This document shows positions 6,406 through 33,853 of a stretch of 64,000 bases of DNA, piece by piece; positions within the stretch are counted from its first letter, which is position 1, and each line of letters begins with the position of its first letter. The notes under the pieces were generated by a model. The model did no database searches. It was not told the origin of the DNA and saw nothing but the letters and a program-made list of their open reading frames with translations. The stretch is from Tepidimicrobium xylanilyticum (GTDB lineage Bacteria; Bacillota; Clostridia; Tissierellales; Tepidimicrobiaceae), in contig NZ_FNNG01000001.1 of the NCBI RefSeq assembly GCF_900106765.1, positions 127,774-191,773 on the forward strand, given 5' to 3'. The position numbers and the translations under genes are program-made.

Positions 6406-7728
6406 TTATGCTATTGACTCTCCACCTTTTTCTTCTTCTAACAATTTCTTTTCATATGACTTAAAGAATGGATAATAAATTATCATATCAATTACAATTA
6501 ACAATACCACTAGTACAAATGCTTTCCAATCCATAGTAGAAAGTGCTAACCCTAAAGGAGCAGGAGTTGTCCAAGGAGCTTGAACAAAAACCTTCTCTAT
6601 TAGCCCTACCTTCATAGCAGTATAACAAATTAGGTTATTAACCATAGGTGCTGTTATAAGAGGTATCATTAATATCGGATTAAGTATTATAGGTGCACCA
6701 AATAATACTGGCTCATTAATATTAAATAATCCGGGCAAAATACCAAGTTTTCCTACTGTCTTTAGATGAGATGATTTACTTCTAAGCATTAATAATGTTA
6801 AACCTAAAGTTGCTCCCGAACCTCCTAAATGGCCTGAAAAAGCCCATAATGGTTCTGTAAATATATGTGGTAAAGATTCACCAGCAGCTTTTGCTGCAGC
6901 ATTTGCCAAAATATTAGACATAAAAACCGGAGTAACAATAGGATTTAGCGCTGCACCATGAACACCAATAGACCACAAAAGATGTCTAAGCATTGTCATA
7001 ATCAGCACAAACCATATAGTGTCAGCACCTTTCAATGCTGGAGTTAATACTGACATAATTGTTTCTGGAATATTTTTTCCTACTGTACCAATTAAAATTA
7101 AATTTATAGCATAAAATAGAATTACATTTATAATCATTGGAATTAATCCACTAAATGATGCTGCTACTGCAGGTGGAACTCCTTCAGGCATTTTGATAGT
7201 TATTCCTTTTTTCAATAAGCCCTTTGTAATTTCCACTGTTATTAACCCAACAATCATAGCTGTAAAAAGCCCTTTTGCATCTAAATAAGTTGTAGGTATC
7301 ATACCATCTTTTGAAGGAGCCGCAACTAGTAAAAAAACTACTCCTGCAATAATTCCACTAGCTAAAGGATTCGTGCCATATTCTTCCTCATAATGTTTGC
7401 CCAAACTATAACCTATAGCAAAAGCAACGAAAAGTGCCATTATTGCCATAGTCATTTTAAAAGGAGTTAACACCACTTCTGTATTTGTTTTAGCCCAATT
7501 ATACCAAGCTAATAGAAATTTATTAAAAAAGTTAGTCGGTTTTATCATTTCAGGATCTACCGGGGGAGATGCTATTATTAAACTTATACCACCAATAATG
7601 GTCAAAGGTATTGTACTCATAAGTCCACTCATAATAGCTTTTAAATGTTTCTGTTCAGAAATTTTAGTAGAAACTGGCAAAAGCCTATCTTCTACAATTT
7701 TACTAAATTTGCTATTTTGATTACTCAT
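6406..7728 (-). CDS. celB: PTS cellobiose-type IIC permease
   Basis: A 440-aa polytopic membrane protein, the sugar-translocating subunit of a cellobiose/diacetylchitobiose-type PTS. Around ten hydrophobic segments are seen. Family features include the N-terminal LPVSTKISEQKHLKAIMSGLM, GIIAGVVFLLVA, the HLGGSGATLGL stretch, and LPGLFNINEPVLFGAPIILNP, where the NEP triplet is the conserved sugar-binding loop of IIC proteins. The ribosome binding site GGAGGAAGG precedes the ATG. Substrate (cellobiose versus another beta-glucoside) is inferred from the GH4 gene in the same operon. Confidence 0.92.
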   Translation of the reverse strand: MSNQNSKFSKIVEDRLLPVSTKISEQKHLKAIMSGLMSTIPLTIIGGISLIIASPPVDPEMIKPTNFFNKFLLAWYNWAKTNTEVVLTPFKMTMAIMALFVAFAIGYSLGKHYEEEYGTNPLASGIIAGVVFLLVAAPSKDGMIPTTYLDAKGLFTAMIVGLITVEITKGLLKKGITIKMPEGVPPAVAASFSGLIPMIINVILFYAINLILIGTVGKNIPETIMSVLTPALKGADTIWFVLIMTMLRHLLWSIGVHGAALNPIVTPVFMSNILANAAAKAAGESLPHIFTEPLWAFSGHLGGSGATLGLTLLMLRSKSSHLKTVGKLGILPGLFNINEPVLFGAPIILNPILMIPLITAPMVNNLICYTAMKVGLIEKVFVQAPWTTPAPLGLALSTMDWKAFVLVVLLIVIDMIIYYPFFKSYEKKLLEEEKGGESIA

Positions 7729-7743
7729 TATATTCCTTCCTCC

Positions 7744-8055
7744 CTATTTTTTATTTTCATATAGTTCCTTTGCAAAGTCTAATATTTTTTCCCCATTCGC
7801 CAGCCCATAGTCAGCAGTATTTATGGTTTCCACTGGTATGTTATACTCTCTAGCTATTTTTTCAAATTCATCCTTTTTAAATCTAATTTGCGGTCCCAAA
7901 AGTACTACATCATATTTTTTAAATTCATCTTCGAACCTCTCTGCTGGCTTTGCTTCTATAATCCAATCTTGTTCATCAGGCCCTAAGGCCTTTTTCATCT
8001 TATTCACCACTAAACTAGTTGACATTCCTGCAGCACATACTAATAAGATTTTCAT
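7744..8055 (-). CDS. celA: PTS cellobiose-type IIB component
   Basis: A 103-aa phosphocarrier. The active-site loop LLVCAAGMSTSLVV carries the phosphorylated Cys7, typical of lactose/cellobiose IIB proteins. It receives phosphate from the IIA protein and phosphorylates the sugar as it passes through the IIC protein. It is the first structural gene after the regulator (13 bases downstream) and 15 bases before IIC. GGGAGG precedes the ATG. Confidence 0.93.
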   Translation of the reverse strand: MKILLVCAAGMSTSLVVNKMKKALGPDEQDWIIEAKPAERFEDEFKKYDVVLLGPQIRFKKDEFEKIAREYNIPVETINTADYGLANGEKILDFAKELYENKK

Positions 8056-8068
8056 ACTACTTTCCTCC

Positions 8069-10021
8069 CTATAATTTAATATTTTCTATGAAATCATCAA
8101 AATTCTTAGATTTGTATAACGTCTCCATTGTTTCTCTTGATTCTAATATTTCTTGAAGTAAATAATATAGTACTTTTAATTTCTCATCTTCTTTTGCATT
8201 AACTGCAAACAAAAAGATAATATTTATTTTTTTACCATTATGGATGATTGGATTTTTAAAAATTCCTACAGATACCACTGTTGTTTCTGACATAGATTCC
8301 ATAGGGTGAGGTATAGCTATTTCTTCGTCTAATATGGTTGAAAAAAGGTTTTCTCTCATAATAACAGACTCATAGAACCTTTTTTCATCTTCAATATAGT
8401 TTTCTAACTTTAACATATTGACGAGTTCTAATATAGCATGAAAATAGCTTATTTCCTCAGTAAAGCATTTAAATAACTCTTTTCTAAAAATCTGATATTT
8501 TAATTCTTTTATACCTGTATTTTTAATTCGCCTTAATGGACTATCTATACACTGTCCTATTTTCATAAGATCCTCTTCATTGATCAAAGGATTTACTTGA
8601 ATTATAGGTATCCTGCTCCTATTAGATATAGGTATGGTAGAAACTATTAAATCCACCTTCCCATATTCGCCTTTTAAAATATTGTCCAATTTGTATATAG
8701 GAAAGTATCCAACAATATTTATCAATTCGCTATAATAAGAGGATATCTTCCTCATTATTAGTTGAGCTGTACCTAGCCCAGAACCACAAACAATAGCTAT
8801 ATTTGATTTGTTATCTTTTTCATCCAATGCTACAGCCACATGCAAAGCTATATAGGATACCTCTGCTTCATTAATTATTACTCCTAATTTTTCATTAATT
8901 ATAGGAACTATCAACATAGATATTTCAAAAGCCAACGGGTAATTTGCCTTTATTTGGTTTATTAGTGGATTTTCTTCTAAATAATTATTTTTGATTCTTT
9001 CTAACATAGGATTCAAATGTAATATAAGATTATTTCTAAAGTTTTTATTTTGAGAAAAATCGATATTAAATTTATTTTTTATTTCTTTTATAAACTCTTC
9101 CACTATAATATGGGCTTCAGTTTTTAGAACATACTTTCCGCTTTTAACATTTAATAACCTTTTAGTATTAAAACTTTGCTGAAAGTAAGCTAGTTCCTTT
9201 TCATCGATAGAAATATTAAAGTGACATTCAATTTCCCCTTTAAGGGCCTTAGCTATAGTTAAGTCTAAATCCCCTGCAATTTTTTCGCCTATCCTAAAGC
9301 CCATTTGAATTCTCTTTATACTAATCAAAATCTCTTTTACAAGTAGATTTACATCAACATCTGCTAGGATATATCCATGTTTATTTAATATATTTATTAT
9401 AGATTCATACAAAAATATCATTTCATTATTGAGATTTGCATTTTGACCATCTAAAGCATAGTAAATGGATTTGCTTAACATTAAATCTTCATAGGTTTTC
9501 TCCCTTTTAAGTACATTTGATATTAATAATCTTTTTGATCTCTCATCTCCTTTAAGCTTCATTCCTCTTATTGGCGATATCTCCAATTCTAAGGTTGAAA
9601 ATCCATCCAAAAATTCCATGACCTTTTGTACATCTAGATATACTGTAGTCTTTGAAACGAATAACGTATCAGCAATTTCTTCCATAGTTACATAATCTTT
9701 TGAAAAAGCCAGCTTAAAAATTATGAAGGCAAATCTCTCAGATGGAGTATTGGGAATCCCCTTTAGACTGATTTCTTTATTAAACACTTCTTTTACTATT
9801 TCAAACCCTTTTGCCTTTTGCGTATCGGATATAAAATATCCATCTTGTCTAGAGGAAGATATGCCAATATTATATTTTTTAAGTGTTTCATTTAAAAATT
9901 TAATATCAGATCTAATAGTTCTAGTAGAAACATTGAATATTTTTGATAGTTCTTTGCCTGATAAGGCCTTATCAGAATTTAATAAATGCAAAAAAATATT
10001 TTTTTGCCTTGCATAAGCCAT
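8069..10021 (-). CDS. PRD-containing PTS regulator (LicR/MtlR-like activator)
   Basis: A 650-aa multidomain regulator. In order: an HTH_11 DNA-binding domain (about 5-60, LSGKELSKIFNVSTRTIRSDI), a second Mga-like HTH (about 85-165), two PTS regulation domains (about 190-405, with conserved His in LILHLNPML and YIALHVAVALDE), a IIB-like domain with a Cys in IAIVCGSGLGTAQLI, and a C-terminal IIA-like domain with His in IAIPHPMES. This is the layout of LicR/MtlR activators, not of RNA-binding BglG antiterminators, since no CAT domain is present. It is the first gene of the operon and probably activates it when cellobiose is being transported, with HPr-dependent control through the PRDs. The ribosome binding site is weak (GGTGAT). 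Confidence 0.88.
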   Translation of the reverse strand: MAYARQKNIFLHLLNSDKALSGKELSKIFNVSTRTIRSDIKFLNETLKKYNIGISSSRQDGYFISDTQKAKGFEIVKEVFNKEISLKGIPNTPSERFAFIIFKLAFSKDYVTMEEIADTLFVSKTTVYLDVQKVMEFLDGFSTLELEISPIRGMKLKGDERSKRLLISNVLKREKTYEDLMLSKSIYYALDGQNANLNNEMIFLYESIINILNKHGYILADVDVNLLVKEILISIKRIQMGFRIGEKIAGDLDLTIAKALKGEIECHFNISIDEKELAYFQQSFNTKRLLNVKSGKYVLKTEAHIIVEEFIKEIKNKFNIDFSQNKNFRNNLILHLNPMLERIKNNYLEENPLINQIKANYPLAFEISMLIVPIINEKLGVIINEAEVSYIALHVAVALDEKDNKSNIAIVCGSGLGTAQLIMRKISSYYSELINIVGYFPIYKLDNILKGEYGKVDLIVSTIPISNRSRIPIIQVNPLINEEDLMKIGQCIDSPLRRIKNTGIKELKYQIFRKELFKCFTEEISYFHAILELVNMLKLENYIEDEKRFYESVIMRENLFSTILDEEIAIPHPMESMSETTVVSVGIFKNPIIHNGKKINIIFLFAVNAKEDEKLKVLYYLLQEILESRETMETLYKSKNFDDFIENIKL

Positions 10022-10099
10022 TATGTATCACCAAACCCTTTGAATATATTCTACAGTCGTCACATAATTCTTGCAATTAAGTAAATTTCCTATGGGTTA

Positions 10100-10113
10100 G
10101 GAAAACGATTTAA
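10100..10113 (-). promoter_or_regulatory. possible cre (CcpA) site upstream of the PTS operon
   Basis: The sequence TTAAATCGTTTTCC (minus strand) has the AA-N-CG-N-W core of a catabolite-responsive element, with two differences from TGNAANCGNWNNCA. It lies about 80 bases upstream of the regulator start, where catabolite control of a sugar operon would be expected. Weak evidence. Confidence 0.3.
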
Positions 10114-10242
10114 CATTTAATCCAATAAACAATTAATAACTTATATAAGTTTTGGCAAGTTAAAAGTAATGATGACACAATTTGATGAGGAAATTAATAA
10201 AAAGTTTCACTAACCTAAAACCAAAATAGTATGATGAAGTGA

Positions 10243-10279
10243 AAAATAAAACCTCTGAGTTTCCTCAGAGGTTTTATTT

Positions 10280-10280
<1 letters not shown>
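10243..10280 (-). terminator. terminator of groESL
   Basis: A 17-bp perfect stem (10243-10259 paired with 10264-10280) and 4-base loop. The arms end in an A/T-run that gives TTTTATTTTT at the 3' side. It begins at the groEL stop codon. Confidence 0.9.
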
Positions 10281-11896
<1,616 letters not shown>

Positions 11897-27496: not shown

Positions 27497-28102
27497 CTAT
27501 TTCTTCAATATAGGTGATACTCGCTTATATATCAATAAAGTTACCAAAGTAACTATAATACCTTTAAATAAATTGAATGGTACTATTGCATATAGTATTA
27601 AGCTTTTATAGTCTACTACATATTTATTCACTGCAGAACCCATTGCCACAATCTTGTCTATGGGTAGTCCAAACAACTTTGCATAGAAAGGAATCATGAT
27701 GTAATAATTAATTGTCGACATGGCTGCTGTCATTACTAATACTCCTATAGACATTCCAATTATTGCATTTTTGAAGGTTTTATCCTTGTAGTAGAATAGG
27801 CCTGCTGTGTAGACATAAATGCTACCTACAACAAAATTAGCTAGTTCCCCTACCCCTCCAGTACTTGAGCCTTCGATTAGCAGATTCAATAGGTTTTTTA
27901 CCAGTTGTACTAATACTCCTGCCATTGGACCTAAAGCAAAGGAACCTATTAGTGCTGGTACGTCGGAAATATCAAACTTTAAAAAACTAGGAGCAAACCA
28001 TAGGGGAAAATCAAGTAGCATCAGTATTAAAGCTATTACAGCCAATACTGAGATTTTTACCATGGTCTTTGTGTTTAATAATTCTTTATTCAATGTGTAC
28101 AT
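27497..28102 (-). CDS. ribU: riboflavin ECF transporter S component RibU
   Basis: The start at 28102 follows GGAGGGG by six bases; an upstream in-frame ATG at 28117 lies before the ribosome binding site. The 201-aa membrane protein has about six helices and RibU-type features: the N-terminal KISVLAVIALILMLLDFPLWFAPSFLKFDISDVPALIGSFALGP segment and QLVKNLLNLLIEGSSTGGVGELANFVVGS. It is the substrate-binding subunit for riboflavin uptake. The energising ATPases and T component are not nearby, as usual for group II ECF systems. The FMN riboswitch upstream supports the substrate. Confidence 0.93.
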   Translation of the reverse strand: MYTLNKELLNTKTMVKISVLAVIALILMLLDFPLWFAPSFLKFDISDVPALIGSFALGPMAGVLVQLVKNLLNLLIEGSSTGGVGELANFVVGSIYVYTAGLFYYKDKTFKNAIIGMSIGVLVMTAAMSTINYYIMIPFYAKLFGLPIDKIVAMGSAVNKYVVDYKSLILYAIVPFNLFKGIIVTLVTLLIYKRVSPILKK

Positions 28103-28136
28103 AAAAAACCCCTCCATAAATTTATTTCTTCAGGGA

Positions 28137-28170: not shown

Positions 28171-28207
28171 AGAATGCATATGAAAATTACACAATAATGC
28201 ACTATAA

Positions 28208-28316
28208 TCTTCTCCCATCCAGACTTTCACTGTCGGCCTTGGAATTTCACCAAGTCAACCAATAAATGGCTCGCGGGCTATACCGCCGGTGAGGAATTGC
28301 ACCTCGCCCTGAAGAT
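28208..28316 (-). ncRNA. FMN riboswitch (RFN element)
   Basis: On the minus strand the conserved blocks occur in order: ATCTTCAGGGCGAGG, GTGCAATTCC, CACCGGCGGTAT, AGCCCGCGAGC, a variable stem with TTGACTTGGTGAAATTCCAAGGCCGACAGT, then AAAGTCTGGATGGGAGAAG. The RFN element binds FMN. Here it controls the ribU gene, probably through the downstream hairpin. Confidence 0.98.
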
Positions 28317-28404
28317 TTATCCAAATTAAGTATAGTATAATTTTTATTAATTGTCAATAAATTCTTTATTTGATTTATACTCTTCAAAATACCCATTTCA
28401 ATTT

Positions 28405-29958
28405 CTAAATGCTGGGCCTTTTGATTCTAAACCTACTTACCATGAATACGGATAATAGAGTAAGAATTATGACATTTTCATTAAATAATGGGATATTCGA
28501 TTGGATTCTATAGTTTATATCTATTAAGTGTTTAATAGCAAAGAAACTTCCTGCTAGTGTTATGGGAAGCCCTTTAATGTACTCATAGTCCTCATCTATG
28601 TTGAATCGCGCCAATCTGAATATTCCTGCTCCAACAAATAATATGGATATTACTAATTCCAGCATCTTTAAATATCCGCCATTTAAATTCCACCAAATGA
28701 CTACCGGAGCTAATCCAAATGATAATAAATCGCATAGAGAATCTAATTCTCTTCCAAAGCTGCTGGTTAAGTTAAATTTTCTGGCAACTAATCCATCTAT
28801 TTTATCCACTATTGCTGCTAATATTACCAATATGCAGGAAACCTTTATATTTTTCACTTCTCTGGTAGAGCTTAACCATATGGCTATGATCCCAAATAGC
28901 ATATTGGTATAGGTTATAAGGGAAGGGAGGAAATATTTTTTATCTTCTTTAATTTGTACCTTTAACATATTTATATCATTCCTTATTGTTAGAAGTTTAA
29001 AAACTTTATCAAAAAATAATATTAAGAAACTCATCAAAAATTCAAACCAAAAGGTTACAAACCTAAATACTACTGAAATGGCTATTCCATTTCCCACTTC
29101 TATGCCCTTTAGAGCTAACAGCCCTACCATGCTAGTTTCAAAGCTTCCAATTCCTCCTGGAAGTAAGGGAAGCATGCCTATTATATAGGTTAAGTAGGTT
29201 ATAGCAGCAGCAGAAATAAAGTCGATGCTTATATTATATCCTCTGATTAATATTGCCAACTTAACTGCAAACAAAAGCCATATAGAAATGCCCAGCAACA
29301 ATTGAAAATAGAATTTCCCTTTATTTTCCAGCATCTTATTCAAATTATTTCTATATTGGCTAACCCAATTATAGATTTTCTCTTTCTTTGCATCTTTAAT
29401 CCTTATCTTTTTTAATACTTTCTTAGTTCTTTCCAGATCTATACGTAGGAAAAAAAATATAAATCCCATTAGTATTATTAAAAATACCAATATCGGAACA
29501 AGGAAAGCCCTAAAATACAAGTTATTCCCTGCTGTAGTAATATAAAGCCATATTAAGCTAAATATTACTAAAAAAATAAAACTAGTAATGGAAAGGGTCT
29601 TCTGCAATCCAACAACTAAAATGGCTTCTCCCATTTCCATATTAAGTGCATTTTTAATTTCATATACTCTTGCAAGCTCTCCCCCCACCTTTACTCCCGG
29701 GGAGAGAGCATCTACAATATTGCCTTTAAGATTAATCTTTAAGGCATCATAAAATCTAATATCCTTTCTTATCCAGGAAATAATCAATTTCCACTGGATT
29801 CCCAATAGCATAATAGTCATAATCTGTAAAGATAATAGGAGTAATACTATCTTTAAGGAAATTGTTCTGGCAAAGATTAATAGGCCTTTAAAATCCATAT
29901 TTATAACTAAATAAACAAATATAGCAAATCCCAATATATATGCTAGATACCTTTTCAT
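28405..29958 (-). CDS. fusion of flippase-like (LPG_synthase_TM) domain and CDP-alcohol phosphatidyltransferase
   Basis: The start at 29958 suits AAGGTAA; the frame opens at 29964. The roughly 517-aa membrane protein has two parts. Residues of about 1-320 match the LPG_synthase_TM/UPF0104 flippase-like family (LSPGVKVGGELARVYEIK, LLPGGIGSFETSMVGLLALKG, at least seven helices). Residues of about 335-517 are a CDP-alcohol phosphatidyltransferase with complete motif DG-x2-AR-x8-G-x3-D-x3-D (DKIDGLVARKF...GRELDSLCD), most like phosphatidylserine synthase (ITYTNMLFGI). The two domains are normally separate proteins. It lies 10 bases after the nicotianamine-synthase-like gene in the feo operon. The lipid product is unknown. 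Confidence 0.85.
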   Translation of the reverse strand: MKRYLAYILGFAIFVYLVINMDFKGLLIFARTISLKIVLLLLSLQIMTIMLLGIQWKLIISWIRKDIRFYDALKINLKGNIVDALSPGVKVGGELARVYEIKNALNMEMGEAILVVGLQKTLSITSFIFLVIFSLIWLYITTAGNNLYFRAFLVPILVFLIILMGFIFFFLRIDLERTKKVLKKIRIKDAKKEKIYNWVSQYRNNLNKMLENKGKFYFQLLLGISIWLLFAVKLAILIRGYNISIDFISAAAITYLTYIIGMLPLLPGGIGSFETSMVGLLALKGIEVGNGIAISVVFRFVTFWFEFLMSFLILFFDKVFKLLTIRNDINMLKVQIKEDKKYFLPSLITYTNMLFGIIAIWLSSTREVKNIKVSCILVILAAIVDKIDGLVARKFNLTSSFGRELDSLCDLLSFGLAPVVIWWNLNGGYLKMLELVISILFVGAGIFRLARFNIDEDYEYIKGLPITLAGSFFAIKHLIDINYRIQSNIPLFNENVIILTLLSVFMVSRFRIKRPSI

Positions 29959-29968
29959 GGGCATTACC

Positions 29969-30535
29969 TTAATTCTTAACCACTAACATAATTTCGTCCA
30001 TATTAGGATTATAACAATTTAAACTACAATTTTTCATACAATCCTTACATAGGACTAATAATTTATTTGAAATATTTGAGTAAAAGACCCTCCTACTTTT
30101 TTTAGGATTACGTATTATAATCCTAGTTCCTCTTTTGGATTTGCTCAATATATTTTCAAAAACCTCATCTTTAGATTGGACCTGAAGAGCAATGTGGATT
30201 ACATCATAATCAGAAGGCTCTATCACTTCCCCATTTCCCCAAATTACTTTAATCTTATCCTCTAAGCCCAACTTTTCCACTATATACCTTGCTCTTTCAA
30301 CCGCTTCCTCATCTATATCTAATACATGAATCTTTGCATCTGTTAATTTAGCCATTTGAAGGGCAGTGCATGGGATGGATCCACCACCAATGCACAATAC
30401 CTTATCACCATCTTTTATGCCTGCAATTTCTACCTCATTTTTTACTAATCTTTCATAATATTTATTGTAAAGATTGACTAATGTTTCGGAAAAGGAAATC
30501 CGCTTTTCCATCCAACTGGTCCAAGCAATGATCAT
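29969..30535 (-). CDS. nicotianamine-synthase-like SAM-dependent enzyme
   Basis: The 188-aa class I SAM-fold protein has its nucleotide loop, IGGGSIPCTALQMAK at residues 49-63, matching the GSGPLPLTS loop of nicotianamine synthases rather than the usual GxGxG of methyltransferases. VHVLDIDEEAVERARYIVEKLG-type acidic strand and WGNG follow. The C-terminus has a C-x2-C-x3-C-x3-C motif (Cys163, 166, 170, 174), which could bind an Fe-S cluster or metal. It sits between feoB (9 bases upstream) and the lipid enzyme fusion. Nicotianamine-type enzymes make metallophores from SAM; a metal-related role here is inference. A plain methyltransferase is the alternative. Confidence 0.75.
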   Translation of the reverse strand: MIIAWTSWMEKRISFSETLVNLYNKYYERLVKNEVEIAGIKDGDKVLCIGGGSIPCTALQMAKLTDAKIHVLDIDEEAVERARYIVEKLGLEDKIKVIWGNGEVIEPSDYDVIHIALQVQSKDEVFENILSKSKRGTRIIIRNPKKSRRVFYSNISNKLLVLCKDCMKNCSLNCYNPNMDEIMLVVKN

Positions 30536-30543
30536 ATTTTCAC

Positions 30544-32301
30544 CTACCCAACTAATGCTAATATAAGAGATCCTATCTGATTAATTAATCCAGCAAATAG
30601 AAAGGCTGAGGTAATAGTAGCTACACCAATTCCCAATGAAACCTTTAAAGAAAATTCCTTAGTCAGTACTCCAAATACTGCAAGACATGGAAGATAGAAT
30701 AGAGCAACTACAGAACCTACTAACAACTGCAATGTGCTTAAATCAAGCTCTAATAATGGCAAAACCGCCAATTCCCTTCTTATTATCCCCAGCAATAAGG
30801 AAAGGCTTGCTTCCTTCGGTAATCCCAACCAGCCTTCAACTAAAGGTCCTATCATAGTGCTGATAGAATTTAATACTCCAGTCTCTGCAACTAGTGCGGC
30901 TATTCCTATCCCAACAAACATTGGCCCTTCAGCATCCATTAAGAAATGCTTCATCCTAATTTTCAATTTTTTGAAATAAGACGTTCTATCGGGTAGCAGT
31001 AAATTGGGTATCTCTAAAAGCATAGGCTGTCCTTTCCCCTTGATGACTTTGTCCATTATGATTCCCACAGTAAATAAGGTCATAAATGAAAGCAAATATA
31101 CCAGTATTAAGGCTAAAAAGGATTTATCCCCCAAGAGTGCAAAAAATGCACCACTTTGCGAAGCACAAGGTATGGCAAATGATACTAAGGTAGCCACCAT
31201 AATTCTTTCCTTATAGGTAGTAGCAGCTCTAGTTCCAAGTATTGCTGGCACTGCACAACCATATCCTAACATCATAGGAATAATGTTACCACCTTGTACC
31301 CCAATTTTCTTAAGGGCACCATCAGCCAAAACGCCTATTCTAGGTAGATAACCGCTGTCCTCTAAGAATGAAAATACTACATAGAATAAAAATACATAAG
31401 GCAGTATCAAGGCAAAGGGCCATTCAATACCTATCTTCAATATTCCAAACTCCCCAACCAGTAGATTTCTAAAAATCCCTTCTGGTACAATAAAACTGAC
31501 TATTCTTGTAAAAAAAGGAGTAATCACGTTGTTTACAAGTGGTAGAAGTATTAAAGCTCTTAATGCTTTCCCACCACCAACTACTACTCCTAAAGATAAT
31601 ATTAACACCAACAAGGCTATAGGTATTCCAGGCCAAGGTTTTAGGGTTAAATACTCTAACTTTTGAATGAAAGTTGGCTCTTTATATTCATAACTTTGCA
31701 CTTCATTGGTAATTTCATTAATGGTTGCCCATCTTTCATCTTCACTTTGCTTGGGAAAAGTCTCTGCCTTCTGTCCACATAGGGAAAAGGCCCTATCCAA
31801 TAATTCTCTAAGCCCCTTGTTTTTAATGGCCACAGTAGGAATAACTGGTGCTTTTAACATCACTTCTAATTTATCCTTATCTATTTTAATCCCATCTCTT
31901 TCTGCCACATCGATTAGGTTTAAAGAATATACTATGGGTATTGGATATTCCCTTAAGCTAAGGGCTAAATCTAGATTCCTTGCTAAATTGGTAGCATCTA
32001 AAACACAGATTATAACATCAGCACCCTCTTCTAAAAAACTAGTTGCTACCCTTTCAGCTTCTGAACTGGCCTCTAAGGAATAGGTACCTGGTACGTCTAT
32101 GATTACACCCTTCTTATTTTTGTAATTTACATCCCCGTAGGTATAATCTACAGTAGTACCCACATAATTAGAACTGGTAACATGAACCCCCGTAAGTTTA
32201 GAAAAAATAACGCTCTTACCAACATTAGGATTGCCCATTAATAATATCTTTATCTTATCTTCTGAAGATACAGGAACGACTTGCTCTGAATGACAGCTCA
32301 T
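30544..32301 (-). CDS. feoB: ferrous iron transport protein FeoB
   Basis: The 585-aa inner-membrane Fe2+ importer has an N-terminal G domain: G1 GNPNVGKS at 23-30, the GTTVDYT switch, DVPGTYS, NLID. Then come about eight to ten membrane helices with the conserved GYGCAVPAILGTRA and CASQSGAFFALLG Cys-containing motifs. It is shorter than E. coli FeoB, lacking much of the GDI spacer and the C-terminal tail, but this compact form is common in Clostridia. GGAGG precedes the ATG. The gene follows feoA by two bases and leads a four-gene operon under a Fur-like operator. Confidence 0.95.
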   Translation of the reverse strand: MSCHSEQVVPVSSEDKIKILLMGNPNVGKSVIFSKLTGVHVTSSNYVGTTVDYTYGDVNYKNKKGVIIDVPGTYSLEASSEAERVATSFLEEGADVIICVLDATNLARNLDLALSLREYPIPIVYSLNLIDVAERDGIKIDKDKLEVMLKAPVIPTVAIKNKGLRELLDRAFSLCGQKAETFPKQSEDERWATINEITNEVQSYEYKEPTFIQKLEYLTLKPWPGIPIALLVLILSLGVVVGGGKALRALILLPLVNNVITPFFTRIVSFIVPEGIFRNLLVGEFGILKIGIEWPFALILPYVFLFYVVFSFLEDSGYLPRIGVLADGALKKIGVQGGNIIPMMLGYGCAVPAILGTRAATTYKERIMVATLVSFAIPCASQSGAFFALLGDKSFLALILVYLLSFMTLFTVGIIMDKVIKGKGQPMLLEIPNLLLPDRTSYFKKLKIRMKHFLMDAEGPMFVGIGIAALVAETGVLNSISTMIGPLVEGWLGLPKEASLSLLLGIIRRELAVLPLLELDLSTLQLLVGSVVALFYLPCLAVFGVLTKEFSLKVSLGIGVATITSAFLFAGLINQIGSLILALVG

Positions 32302-32303
32302 GA

Positions 32304-32516
32304 TTATACCTCCTGTACTTCTATTTGTTTTGCTAAGGATTTATCTACAGCTATACTTCTATTGCCTACTTTAATCACCACAGGTCCTTGTAGAGGTTGT
32401 TTGGTCTGTACCTGAAATTTAACCCCTTTTCTAATTCCTAAAGATTTTAATAAATGCATATTAGGTACTTCATGAATAATGTAATCTTTACTCTTTACAC
32501 AGTTATCTAGTACCAT
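32304..32516 (-). CDS. feoA: ferrous iron transport protein FeoA
   Basis: A 70-aa SH3-like beta-barrel protein. HLLKSLGIRKGVKFQVQTKQPLQGPVVIKVGNRSIAVDKSLAKQIEV matches FeoA (HxLxxLGI...G..V......GPV.....G..IA). It is the first gene of the operon, beginning with ATG after GGGAGGGGTAGG, and probably modulates FeoB. The normal gene order feoA-feoB is kept. Confidence 0.94.
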   Translation of the reverse strand: MVLDNCVKSKDYIIHEVPNMHLLKSLGIRKGVKFQVQTKQPLQGPVVIKVGNRSIAVDKSLAKQIEVQEV

Positions 32517-32547
32517 TTCCTACCCCTCCCAATTATATAAGATATGA

Positions 32548-32568
32548 TATTGATTGTCGTTATCAATA
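32548..32568 (-). promoter_or_regulatory. Fur-like operator of the feo operon
   Basis: Perfect inverted repeat TATTGAT-N7-ATCAATA. It overlaps the -10 element and start region of the feo promoter, and contains GATAAC/ATCAATATC blocks related to the Fur box. Iron-dependent repression is inferred. Confidence 0.55.
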
Positions 32569-32594
32569 ATACCACTTTGCAAAGCTTTTGTCAA
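32566..32594 (-). promoter_or_regulatory. sigma-A promoter of the feo operon
   Basis: Minus strand TTGACA (32594-32589), 17-base spacer, TATTAT (32571-32566). It lies about 50 bases upstream of feoA. Confidence 0.8.
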
Positions 32595-32724: not shown

Positions 32725-33837
32725 TTAAAGACCTTTTACCTTGTGGATAGCTTCTTCCGTATAACTAGTCCTAACCTTCATATATCCATTAAACATTTTA
32801 TTCACCTCATCGTCTCCTGTATCTACCAGTAATGGTCTTCCCTCTAATGATAAAAGCTTTTGCTTAGAAGCAATTATTATTATATTTTCCTTTCCAACCC
32901 TTTTAATTACTTCTGCACTAATCTGTTGATTTCCCCTGCCAAATATATAGCCTTGTCCTCCTATTATGGTAACTATTATCTTGGCCTTATTGCCATCAAT
33001 ATGCTTGAGAATCTCTTTTTCATTGGCATCAGAGGCTAATAATTTCTTATTTTTGATTATATCCACTCCTAAGAGGGTATTGGTTAAGCCCAATTTTTCC
33101 ATTATAGGTCTAGTAGAGGTACCTGAGCCGATTATATAAACTACATCCTCTTCCATCTGTTCAATTATTTTATCCGAGATCCCATCTAATGCTGCTTCTT
33201 CTCCGGCAATTCCTCCAGATTTTTGGTTCTGAACCAGCTCTGGTTCAAAAGGAACCTTCATATAGCCATATAATTTAGCTGTAACTTGGCCTTCTCTAAA
33301 GGCCTCCTCATCAATATCCATTACTTCCATTTCCTTTAAATTCAAGTCTTCACCTTGAATATACTTTAAAGCAACCTTGCCAGCAGAACTAGGATGGTTG
33401 GCATAAACTCCAGAATGGATCTTAACGCCAGCAGGAATTCCTATAACTGGGATTTTATCCCCAACTACATTGTAGATATTTCTTGCAGTTCCATCACCGC
33501 CTGCAAATAACAGAAGGTCTACCCCCTCATCCACCATTCGTTCTGCTATTATTTCCGTATCCCTTGAAGTATAATTTTCCTTTGCCTCTCCAATTACCTG
33601 TAGATTAAAACCCAGTTCAAGGGCTTCATCTTCTCCCATCGGTCCAGGCCCAGTAAACAACTTAATTTCATCTTTAACTGATTTCAACACTTCTAGGGCT
33701 TTCTTAGCCTTATTTGGAGATTCAGGAACAGCCCCCAGTTCTATTGCCTTCATTAGAACCTCCTTACCATCAGTACCTTTTAATCCTACTCTTCCTCCCA
33801 TTCCTGCTATAGGATTTACTATGAATCCTAGCTTCAA
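32725..33837 (-). CDS. ATP-NAD kinase (AcoX-like) family protein
   Basis: The start is placed at TTG 33837, six bases after GAGGTG; the longer frame from 33846 would use the ribosome binding site itself as start. The 370-aa protein has LGFIVNPIAGMGGRVGLKGTDG at the N-terminus and the diacylglycerol/NAD-kinase motif LLLFAGGDGTARNIYNVVG. VIGIPAGVKIHSGVYANHP also fits. The family is annotated as ATP-NAD kinase-like/AcoX; NAD phosphorylation has not been shown for most members. It lies 17 bases after the amidohydrolase gene, at the end of a likely operon. Confidence 0.85.
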   Translation of the reverse strand: MKLGFIVNPIAGMGGRVGLKGTDGKEVLMKAIELGAVPESPNKAKKALEVLKSVKDEIKLFTGPGPMGEDEALELGFNLQVIGEAKENYTSRDTEIIAERMVDEGVDLLLFAGGDGTARNIYNVVGDKIPVIGIPAGVKIHSGVYANHPSSAGKVALKYIQGEDLNLKEMEVMDIDEEAFREGQVTAKLYGYMKVPFEPELVQNQKSGGIAGEEAALDGISDKIIEQMEEDVVYIIGSGTSTRPIMEKLGLTNTLLGVDIIKNKKLLASDANEKEILKHIDGNKAKIIVTIIGGQGYIFGRGNQQISAEVIKRVGKENIIIIASKQKLLSLEGRPLLVDTGDDEVNKMFNGYMKVRTSYTEEAIHKVKGL

Positions 33838-33853
33838 AATATTCACCTCTCTA

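Follow-up and report, generated by a model that had tools for sequence, protein, structure and literature searches.

Lipid modification of the MprF type couples a synthase to a flippase of the LPG_synthase_TM family, and the acceptor of BtaA is diacylglycerol. In betaine-lipid synthesis BtaA transfers a 3-amino-3-carboxypropyl (ACP) group derived from S-adenosylmethionine (SAM) and is described as apparently not homologous to nicotianamine synthase (NAS) or to CntL (PMC10491745). In NAS catalysis an amino acid is linked through its alpha-amino group to the aminobutyrate moiety of SAM (PMC10248798), and in MtNAS the residues Glu81 and Tyr107 deprotonate the acceptor amine (PMC10491745). The opine zincophore clusters combine cntL and cntM with ATP-binding cassette (ABC) transporters of the Opp or FecCD type and with an exporter of the major facilitator superfamily or of the EamA type (PMC7438024). 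Here we describe a locus within a stretch of 64,000 nucleotides (the window) of Tepidimicrobium xylanilyticum (contig NZ_FNNG01000001.1, positions 127,774 to 191,773), where a short NAS-family protein is encoded in a ferrous iron uptake (feo) operon together with a flippase-like and phosphatidylserine (PS) synthase-like fusion protein.

The operon is located on the minus strand in the order feoA, feoB, NAS-like gene and fusion gene, and the coordinates of the open reading frames (ORFs) leave gaps of 2, 8 and 4 bases. The first gene, feoA (32304..32516), encodes 70 amino acids (Pfam FeoA, 50.3 bits), while feoB (30544..32301) encodes a Fe2+ transporter of 585 residues with the Pfam domains FeoB_N, Gate and FeoB_C, that scores 320 bits against TIGR00437 (cut-off 315.65). 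It is followed by a 188-residue short SAM enzyme of the NAS family (29969..30535; Pfam NAS 40.5 bits, cut-off 27.1), the proposed aminocarboxypropyl transferase. The fusion gene (28405..29964; 519 residues; Pfam LPG_synthase_TM and CDP-OH_P_transf) is composed of a flippase-like N-terminal part, residues 1-322 (28999..29964), which reaches 130.4 bits against LPG_synthase_TM (PF03706; cut-off 33.4) and 106 bits against TIGR00374, and a PssA-like C-terminal part, residues 329-519 (28405..28980), which matches Pfam CDP-OH_P_transf with 67 bits as well as TIGR00473. Upstream of feoA there is a promoter-like site on the minus strand (32566..32594; TTGACA-17-TATTAT, 11 of 12 positions, with TG before the second hexamer), and a terminator-like stem (32704-32672) separates feoA from the upstream gene, both being consensus matches only. 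A preliminary description of this DNA had proposed four consecutive feo-operon genes with tiny gaps behind a single promoter, and the gaps and these two sites agree with it.

Relatives were collected in three samples, i.e., the window's order (199 genomes, 15 with a strong NAS-like match, the window's genome included), its class (391 genomes, 16 further) and its phylum (219 genomes, 22 further), 53 genomes together. Other matching genomes were set aside: 24 of 39 in the order (E 9.0e-7 to 9.8e-4; regarded, without individual checks, as other SAM enzymes), 3 of 20 in the class (G553, G344 and G523; longer proteins at loci where no relative of feo was found) and 2 of 25 in the phylum (G676, E 4.8e-22, and G635, E 7e-13; loci not fetched). 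The feoAB–NAS-like cluster noticed in the preliminary description is conserved, since a NAS-like copy is clustered with feoB in 52 of the 53 genomes. A flippase-like gene adjoins the NAS-like gene in 50 of them; the exceptions are G654, with neither feo nor flippase, and G594 and G672, with feoB but no flippase seen (the contig of G594 is 3.5 kb long). Among the order and class relatives the cluster begins with feoA whenever that gene is present on the contig. The feoB gene of G026 is divided between two ORFs (locus L053, 8090-9184 and 9211-9879), which is either a frameshift or a genuine split, and four genomes (G625, G663, G621 and G575) carry a second NAS-like copy away from feo. A Pss-like gene comes next in 30 of the 53 genomes (10 in the order, 9 in the class, 11 in the phylum). 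In 28 of these it stands apart from the flippase-like gene, and it is fused with it only in the window and in G506, a point absent from the preliminary description; compared with the same-genus locus L040, indels at the window's fusion junction put both genes into one frame.

Two variants of the cluster were also observed. The layout feoA-NAS-flippase-feoB occurs at L131, L137, L140, L142 and L091, which form a supported group (97/91) with L135 and L141 in the NAS tree (72 rows, 69 different, as the long rows L096-L098 were entered twice), and two NAS-like genes stand in the clusters L087 (G327), L136 (G594) and L138 (G672). Outside these samples, a scan of viral contigs gave 10 pattern matches, among which no relative was confirmed. 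A scan of genome contigs gave eight loci. Seven of them belong to Bacillota and encode CntL-like proteins or fragments, the eighth, from Bacteriovoracales, encodes a 160-residue protein, and BLAST found no feo, flippase or pss relative in those eight.

Fur-box-like sites were counted with a consensus of 14 positions and with expected counts from shuffles. Upstream of feoA, 17 of 31 feo loci have sites of at least 12/14 (0.54 expected), and 21 of 31 have sites of at least 11/14 (4.0 expected). The window itself has two overlapping sites (32545..32565), each 11/14, a score reached 24 times in the window vs. 19.2 expected and therefore within chance. An iron-linked metallophore or lipid step, which had been suggested earlier, is supported as a suggestion.

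The distribution of PssA and PS decarboxylase (Psd), which was absent from the preliminary description, points to phosphatidylserine. PssA was counted in the order at TIGR00473 E < 1e-18 (29 of 199 genomes; next best 6.4e-10) and in the class at E up to 1e-12, and Psd over its Pfam cut-off, which gave 20 of 199 genomes in the order (G197, below the cut-off, was dropped) and 76 of 391 in the class (a few being fragments). In the order, PssA is present in 15 of 15 genomes with the NAS-like gene vs. 14 of 184 without it (Fisher p 5.7e-15, uncorrected for kinship). PssA without Psd occurs there in ten genomes, which are exactly the ten with operon pss; the remaining five with the NAS-like gene (G012, G026, G030, G043 and G052) have no operon pss and all have Psd. 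The class, the window's order excluded, shows largely the same picture: Psd is absent from all nine genomes with operon pss, and it is present in five of the six in which no pss comes after the flippase gene. G327 and G408 were left out of the Fisher test for the class. In the phylum, PssA was found elsewhere in 8 of 8 tested out of the 11 genomes without pss beside the NAS-like gene (G654 among the eight), a prediction checked after the order and class pattern was seen.

In the window's genome no Psd was detected, and the sole strong PssA match is that of the feo operon; two other CDP-alcohol phosphotransferases, which match Pfam better and PssA weakly, are probably PgsA-like. The nearest models of the C-terminal part of the fusion are archaetidylserine synthase and PssA. 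It scores 97.7 bits against TIGR00473 pssA (cut-off 107), which some operon relatives pass (G098 with 118 and G117 with 117.1), and the CDP-alcohol phosphotransferase motif DxxDGxxARx8GxxxDxxxD is intact in the window and in 28 of 29 operon relatives. Mapped onto the NAS tree, the presence of pss in the operon requires nine changes under parsimony, at least six of them on well-supported branches; one of the nine may come from L083 (G408), a truncated operon that ends ahead of any pss and was labelled 'no pss'. The Psd genomes G012 and G030 group with the window and eight operon-pss forms in a supported set of 12 rows (99/95), and the Psd genome G026 groups with five operon-pss forms in a set of six (100/100). 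The NAS-like gene travels with some source of PS, whichever source it is. Since both arrangements have PS as their simplest shared product, PS itself, and not phosphatidylethanolamine, is likely the acceptor or precursor.

We infer from this a pathway which we favour, at somewhat less than an even bet: a NAS-family ACP transferase acts on PS, the flippase exposes the product and a membrane-bound ligand gathers Fe2+ near FeoB. The fusion would supply the PS through its Pss part, and in genomes with the PssA-Psd pathway the usual PssA would do so. The 188-residue enzyme would move ACP from SAM onto the head-group amine of PS, a plausible lipid acceptor because it presents an amino acid whose amine is free, as NAS acceptors do, and the loss of most of the N-terminal domain could open the active site to the membrane surface. 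The product would be N-(3-amino-3-carboxypropyl)-PS or a longer form, which could offer two amines, two carboxylates and one phosphate as ligands. The flippase-like part would then turn this lipid to the outer face, beside FeoB, and the exposed lipid may serve there as a nicotianamine-type ligand gathering Fe2+, perhaps also other divalent metals. A bolder form of this proposal, possible and yet more doubtful, is a membrane-lipid metallophore, in which PS with one or more ACP units, once flipped, would hand Fe2+ directly to FeoB, so that the chelator would never leave the membrane. Two NAS-like genes per cluster may mean two rounds of transfer, and those clusters (G327, G594 and G672) might give a lipid nicotianamine.

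Several observations weigh against the PS pathway. Neither feo nor flippase adjoins the NAS-like copy at L128, L139, L141 and L143, and 10 of the 31 feo loci are without any Fur-like site of at least 11/14. The sixth class genome without pss after the flippase gene, G327 (61% complete), has a second NAS-like gene in the place of pss, with no Psd or PssA detected, and in G408 the operon is cut in the flippase gene and PssA and Psd were not detected, so it was not scored. Four class genomes (G206, G235, G297 and G390) have PssA, no Psd and no NAS-like gene. Completeness is only 87% in G113 and G103 and 88% in G427, which are among the genomes lacking Psd, and the 8 of 8 for PssA in the phylum stands without a phylum baseline.

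Among the alternatives a soluble metallophore of the NAS type, although unlikely, survives best: ACP would be moved onto a free amino acid, the flippase-like protein would export the product, and the PS synthase would serve the membrane alone. Known NAS and CntL act on free amino acids (PMC10491745, PMC10248798), and one relative, at L128 (G654, 6969-10441), has as neighbours an EamA transporter, a pair of Opp-type ABC ATPases, an SBP_bac_5 protein and DUF3793, with no CntM among the eight proteins scanned; this locus is a possible soluble-metallophore cluster. Zincophore clusters combine NAS with Opp-type ABC and EamA transporters (PMC7438024), and the likeness of the L128 transporter set to them supports metallophore chemistry for the short family. 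However, a soluble product leaves unexplained why PssA without Psd is restricted in the order sample to operon-pss genomes, and why operon pss is found exactly where Psd is absent. Moreover, apart from FeoB the window's operon genes include no importer for a chelate, and no opine dehydrogenase (CntM) was found in a scan that covered seven proteins of the window.

The kinship of the 188-residue protein with NAS is real; the enzyme is a new subtype of the known NAS family. The protein has the SAM loop IGGGSIPCTA, and its match to Pfam NAS (PF03059) spans positions 98-243 of the 276 of the profile. Pfam NAS matches 15 of 15 relatives at E up to 0.01, the next-ranking model 12 of 15. In a sequence search of the PDB, MtNAS was the best match (E 3.7e-17), followed by CntL (1.4e-7), and a profile of the 15 relatives gave 3.7e-21 and 4e-14, respectively. 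A structure model, built with the window protein and seven relatives (predicted local distance difference test, pLDDT, 69.9; predicted template modelling score 0.72), was searched with Foldseek, and rows 1-3 were all archaeal MtNAS. The tree places the Bacillota CntL-like proteins on a branch apart from the short NAS family (97/94), although one long protein, L098 (branch 3.25), falls inside the short family, so the split between long and short forms is not clean. The CntL equivalog NF033601 is reached with 47.2 bits, far from its cut-off of 350.

Conservation was counted over 33 sequences, and E10, Y27, E34 and R142 are invariant in all 33. In the profile alignment MtNAS Tyr107 falls on Y27, and a counterpart of the tyrosine of the NAS reaction in the short family is supported. 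E10 is a candidate for the counterpart of the catalytic MtNAS Glu81: it aligns with the glutamate of the MEK motif of CntL-like proteins after their N-termini were shortened, a position where PDB 7c9k has Q and 7c9m has E. These assignments meet with opposing data, as the pairwise alignment places Tyr107 on Y26 (31 of 33), the full-length CntL-like alignment places the MEK of the window elsewhere, the ranges of VIA-align are shifted so that E10 is not clearly on the catalytic glutamate, and the modelled N-terminus around E10 has low confidence (pLDDT about 46).

Whether such a protein might instead be a lipid methyltransferase, acting on the PS head group or another lipid as a membrane adaptation alongside iron uptake, has to be considered, and we regard this as improbable. 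The fold is that of class I methyltransferases, Methyltransf_31 is matched with 37.2 bits (cut-off 27), and many methyltransferase models match weakly. VIA-align, where rows differing by Z < 1 count as ties, gave Z 14.5 for the methyltransferase TleD, tied with MtNAS (Z 13.8, rmsd 4.0, 159 aligned), so that NAS is not first; CntL, MccD and TYW2 follow with Z 12.2 to 12.4. Besides, the N-terminal domain of NAS is mostly absent and the two-domain architecture was not found. The identification as a NAS-like SAM enzyme made in the preliminary description is borne out by the Pfam cut-off, the PDB search and Foldseek. An ordinary methyltransferase is ranked below a NAS-type transferase, because Pfam NAS matches more members than any other model, the three top Foldseek rows are MtNAS, and the tyrosine of the NAS reaction, perhaps also its glutamate, has an invariant counterpart.

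Another acceptor, either a lipid or a FeoB-linked component, with PS required only as the precursor of the true acceptor or, through its negative charge, as a lipid that the transporter needs, is likewise improbable. One of the 15 family members matches DUF3419 (E 0.0015), the family of BtaA, the ACP transferase to diacylglycerol, and dependence on PS does not by itself name the acceptor. Nevertheless, PS is the simplest product shared by the group with operon pss and no Psd and the group with PssA and Psd, and its head group, being an amino acid that bears a free amine, is of the type accepted by NAS (PMC10248798).

The C-x2-C-x3-C-x3-C tail (Cys 163-174) noted in the preliminary description is present as written in the window protein. 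As a metal site it was rejected, since all four cysteines are limited to the window (1 of 33 sequences), the same-genus relative keeping two of them. A metal-binding regulator or sensor of FeoB, FeoC-like and without enzyme activity, might be read from the four cysteines at residues 163-174, and is very improbable, as this tail occurs once in 33 sequences whereas the SAM loop and the candidate catalytic residues are conserved.

If the PS pathway is true, it would bring a new class of phospholipids and a new route of ferrous iron uptake, with a chelating head group that is anchored in the membrane close to the transporter. The presence of a PS synthase in genomes without PS decarboxylase would then be explained, and one branch of the flippase-like family would gain a function. 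In the open-licence literature, as covered by titles and the starts of abstracts, no description of the combination of feoAB with NAS-like, flippase-like and pss genes was found, and neither 'FeoB' nor 'nicotianamine' occurs in the passages of PMC12419801 that were covered. The published mapping of zincophores started from CntM and thus would not have led to this group (PMC7438024).

After the operon, an FMN (flavin mononucleotide) riboswitch (28203-28320, minus strand, 120 bits) precedes the gene of an energy-coupling factor (ECF) type transporter (27497-28117, minus strand), and this pair is a separate and ordinary unit, probably for riboflavin uptake. Upstream, at 32725-33846 on the minus strand, an ATP-NAD-kinase-like protein of 373 residues is encoded, over the Pfam cut-off and far below the cut-offs of the NAD kinase equivalogs.

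How does the locus compare with the systems described so far? BtaA transfers ACP to a lipid, as the enzyme in our proposal would, and differs in its acceptor, diacylglycerol. It is also described as apparently without homology to NAS and CntL (PMC10491745). MtNAS (PDB 3fpe, 3fpg, 3fpj and 3o31) is alike in the SAM domain, the G-G-G-x-x-P loop and the position of Tyr107; its chain has 296-298 residues against 188 here, where the N-terminal domain is mostly gone and the gene shares a feo operon with genes for lipid enzymes. CntL, the staphylopine D-histidine aminobutanoyltransferase (PDB 7c7m and 7c9m), shares the SAM domain and, in the shortened alignment, the MEK-like glutamate, whereas the NF033601 score far below cut-off, the lack of CntM among the scanned neighbours and the separate tree branch (97/94) set it apart. 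The opine zincophore clusters are similar in tying a NAS-family enzyme to metal uptake and to an export-type membrane protein, while here FeoAB takes the place of the ABC importer, flippase-like and PS synthase genes are added and no CntM was seen. From the MprF type the locus differs in having a NAS-family SAM enzyme for the domain using aminoacyl-tRNA (the MprF model scores 28.4 bits, cut-off 600), and in both an enzyme for the head group is coupled to an LPG_synthase_TM protein.

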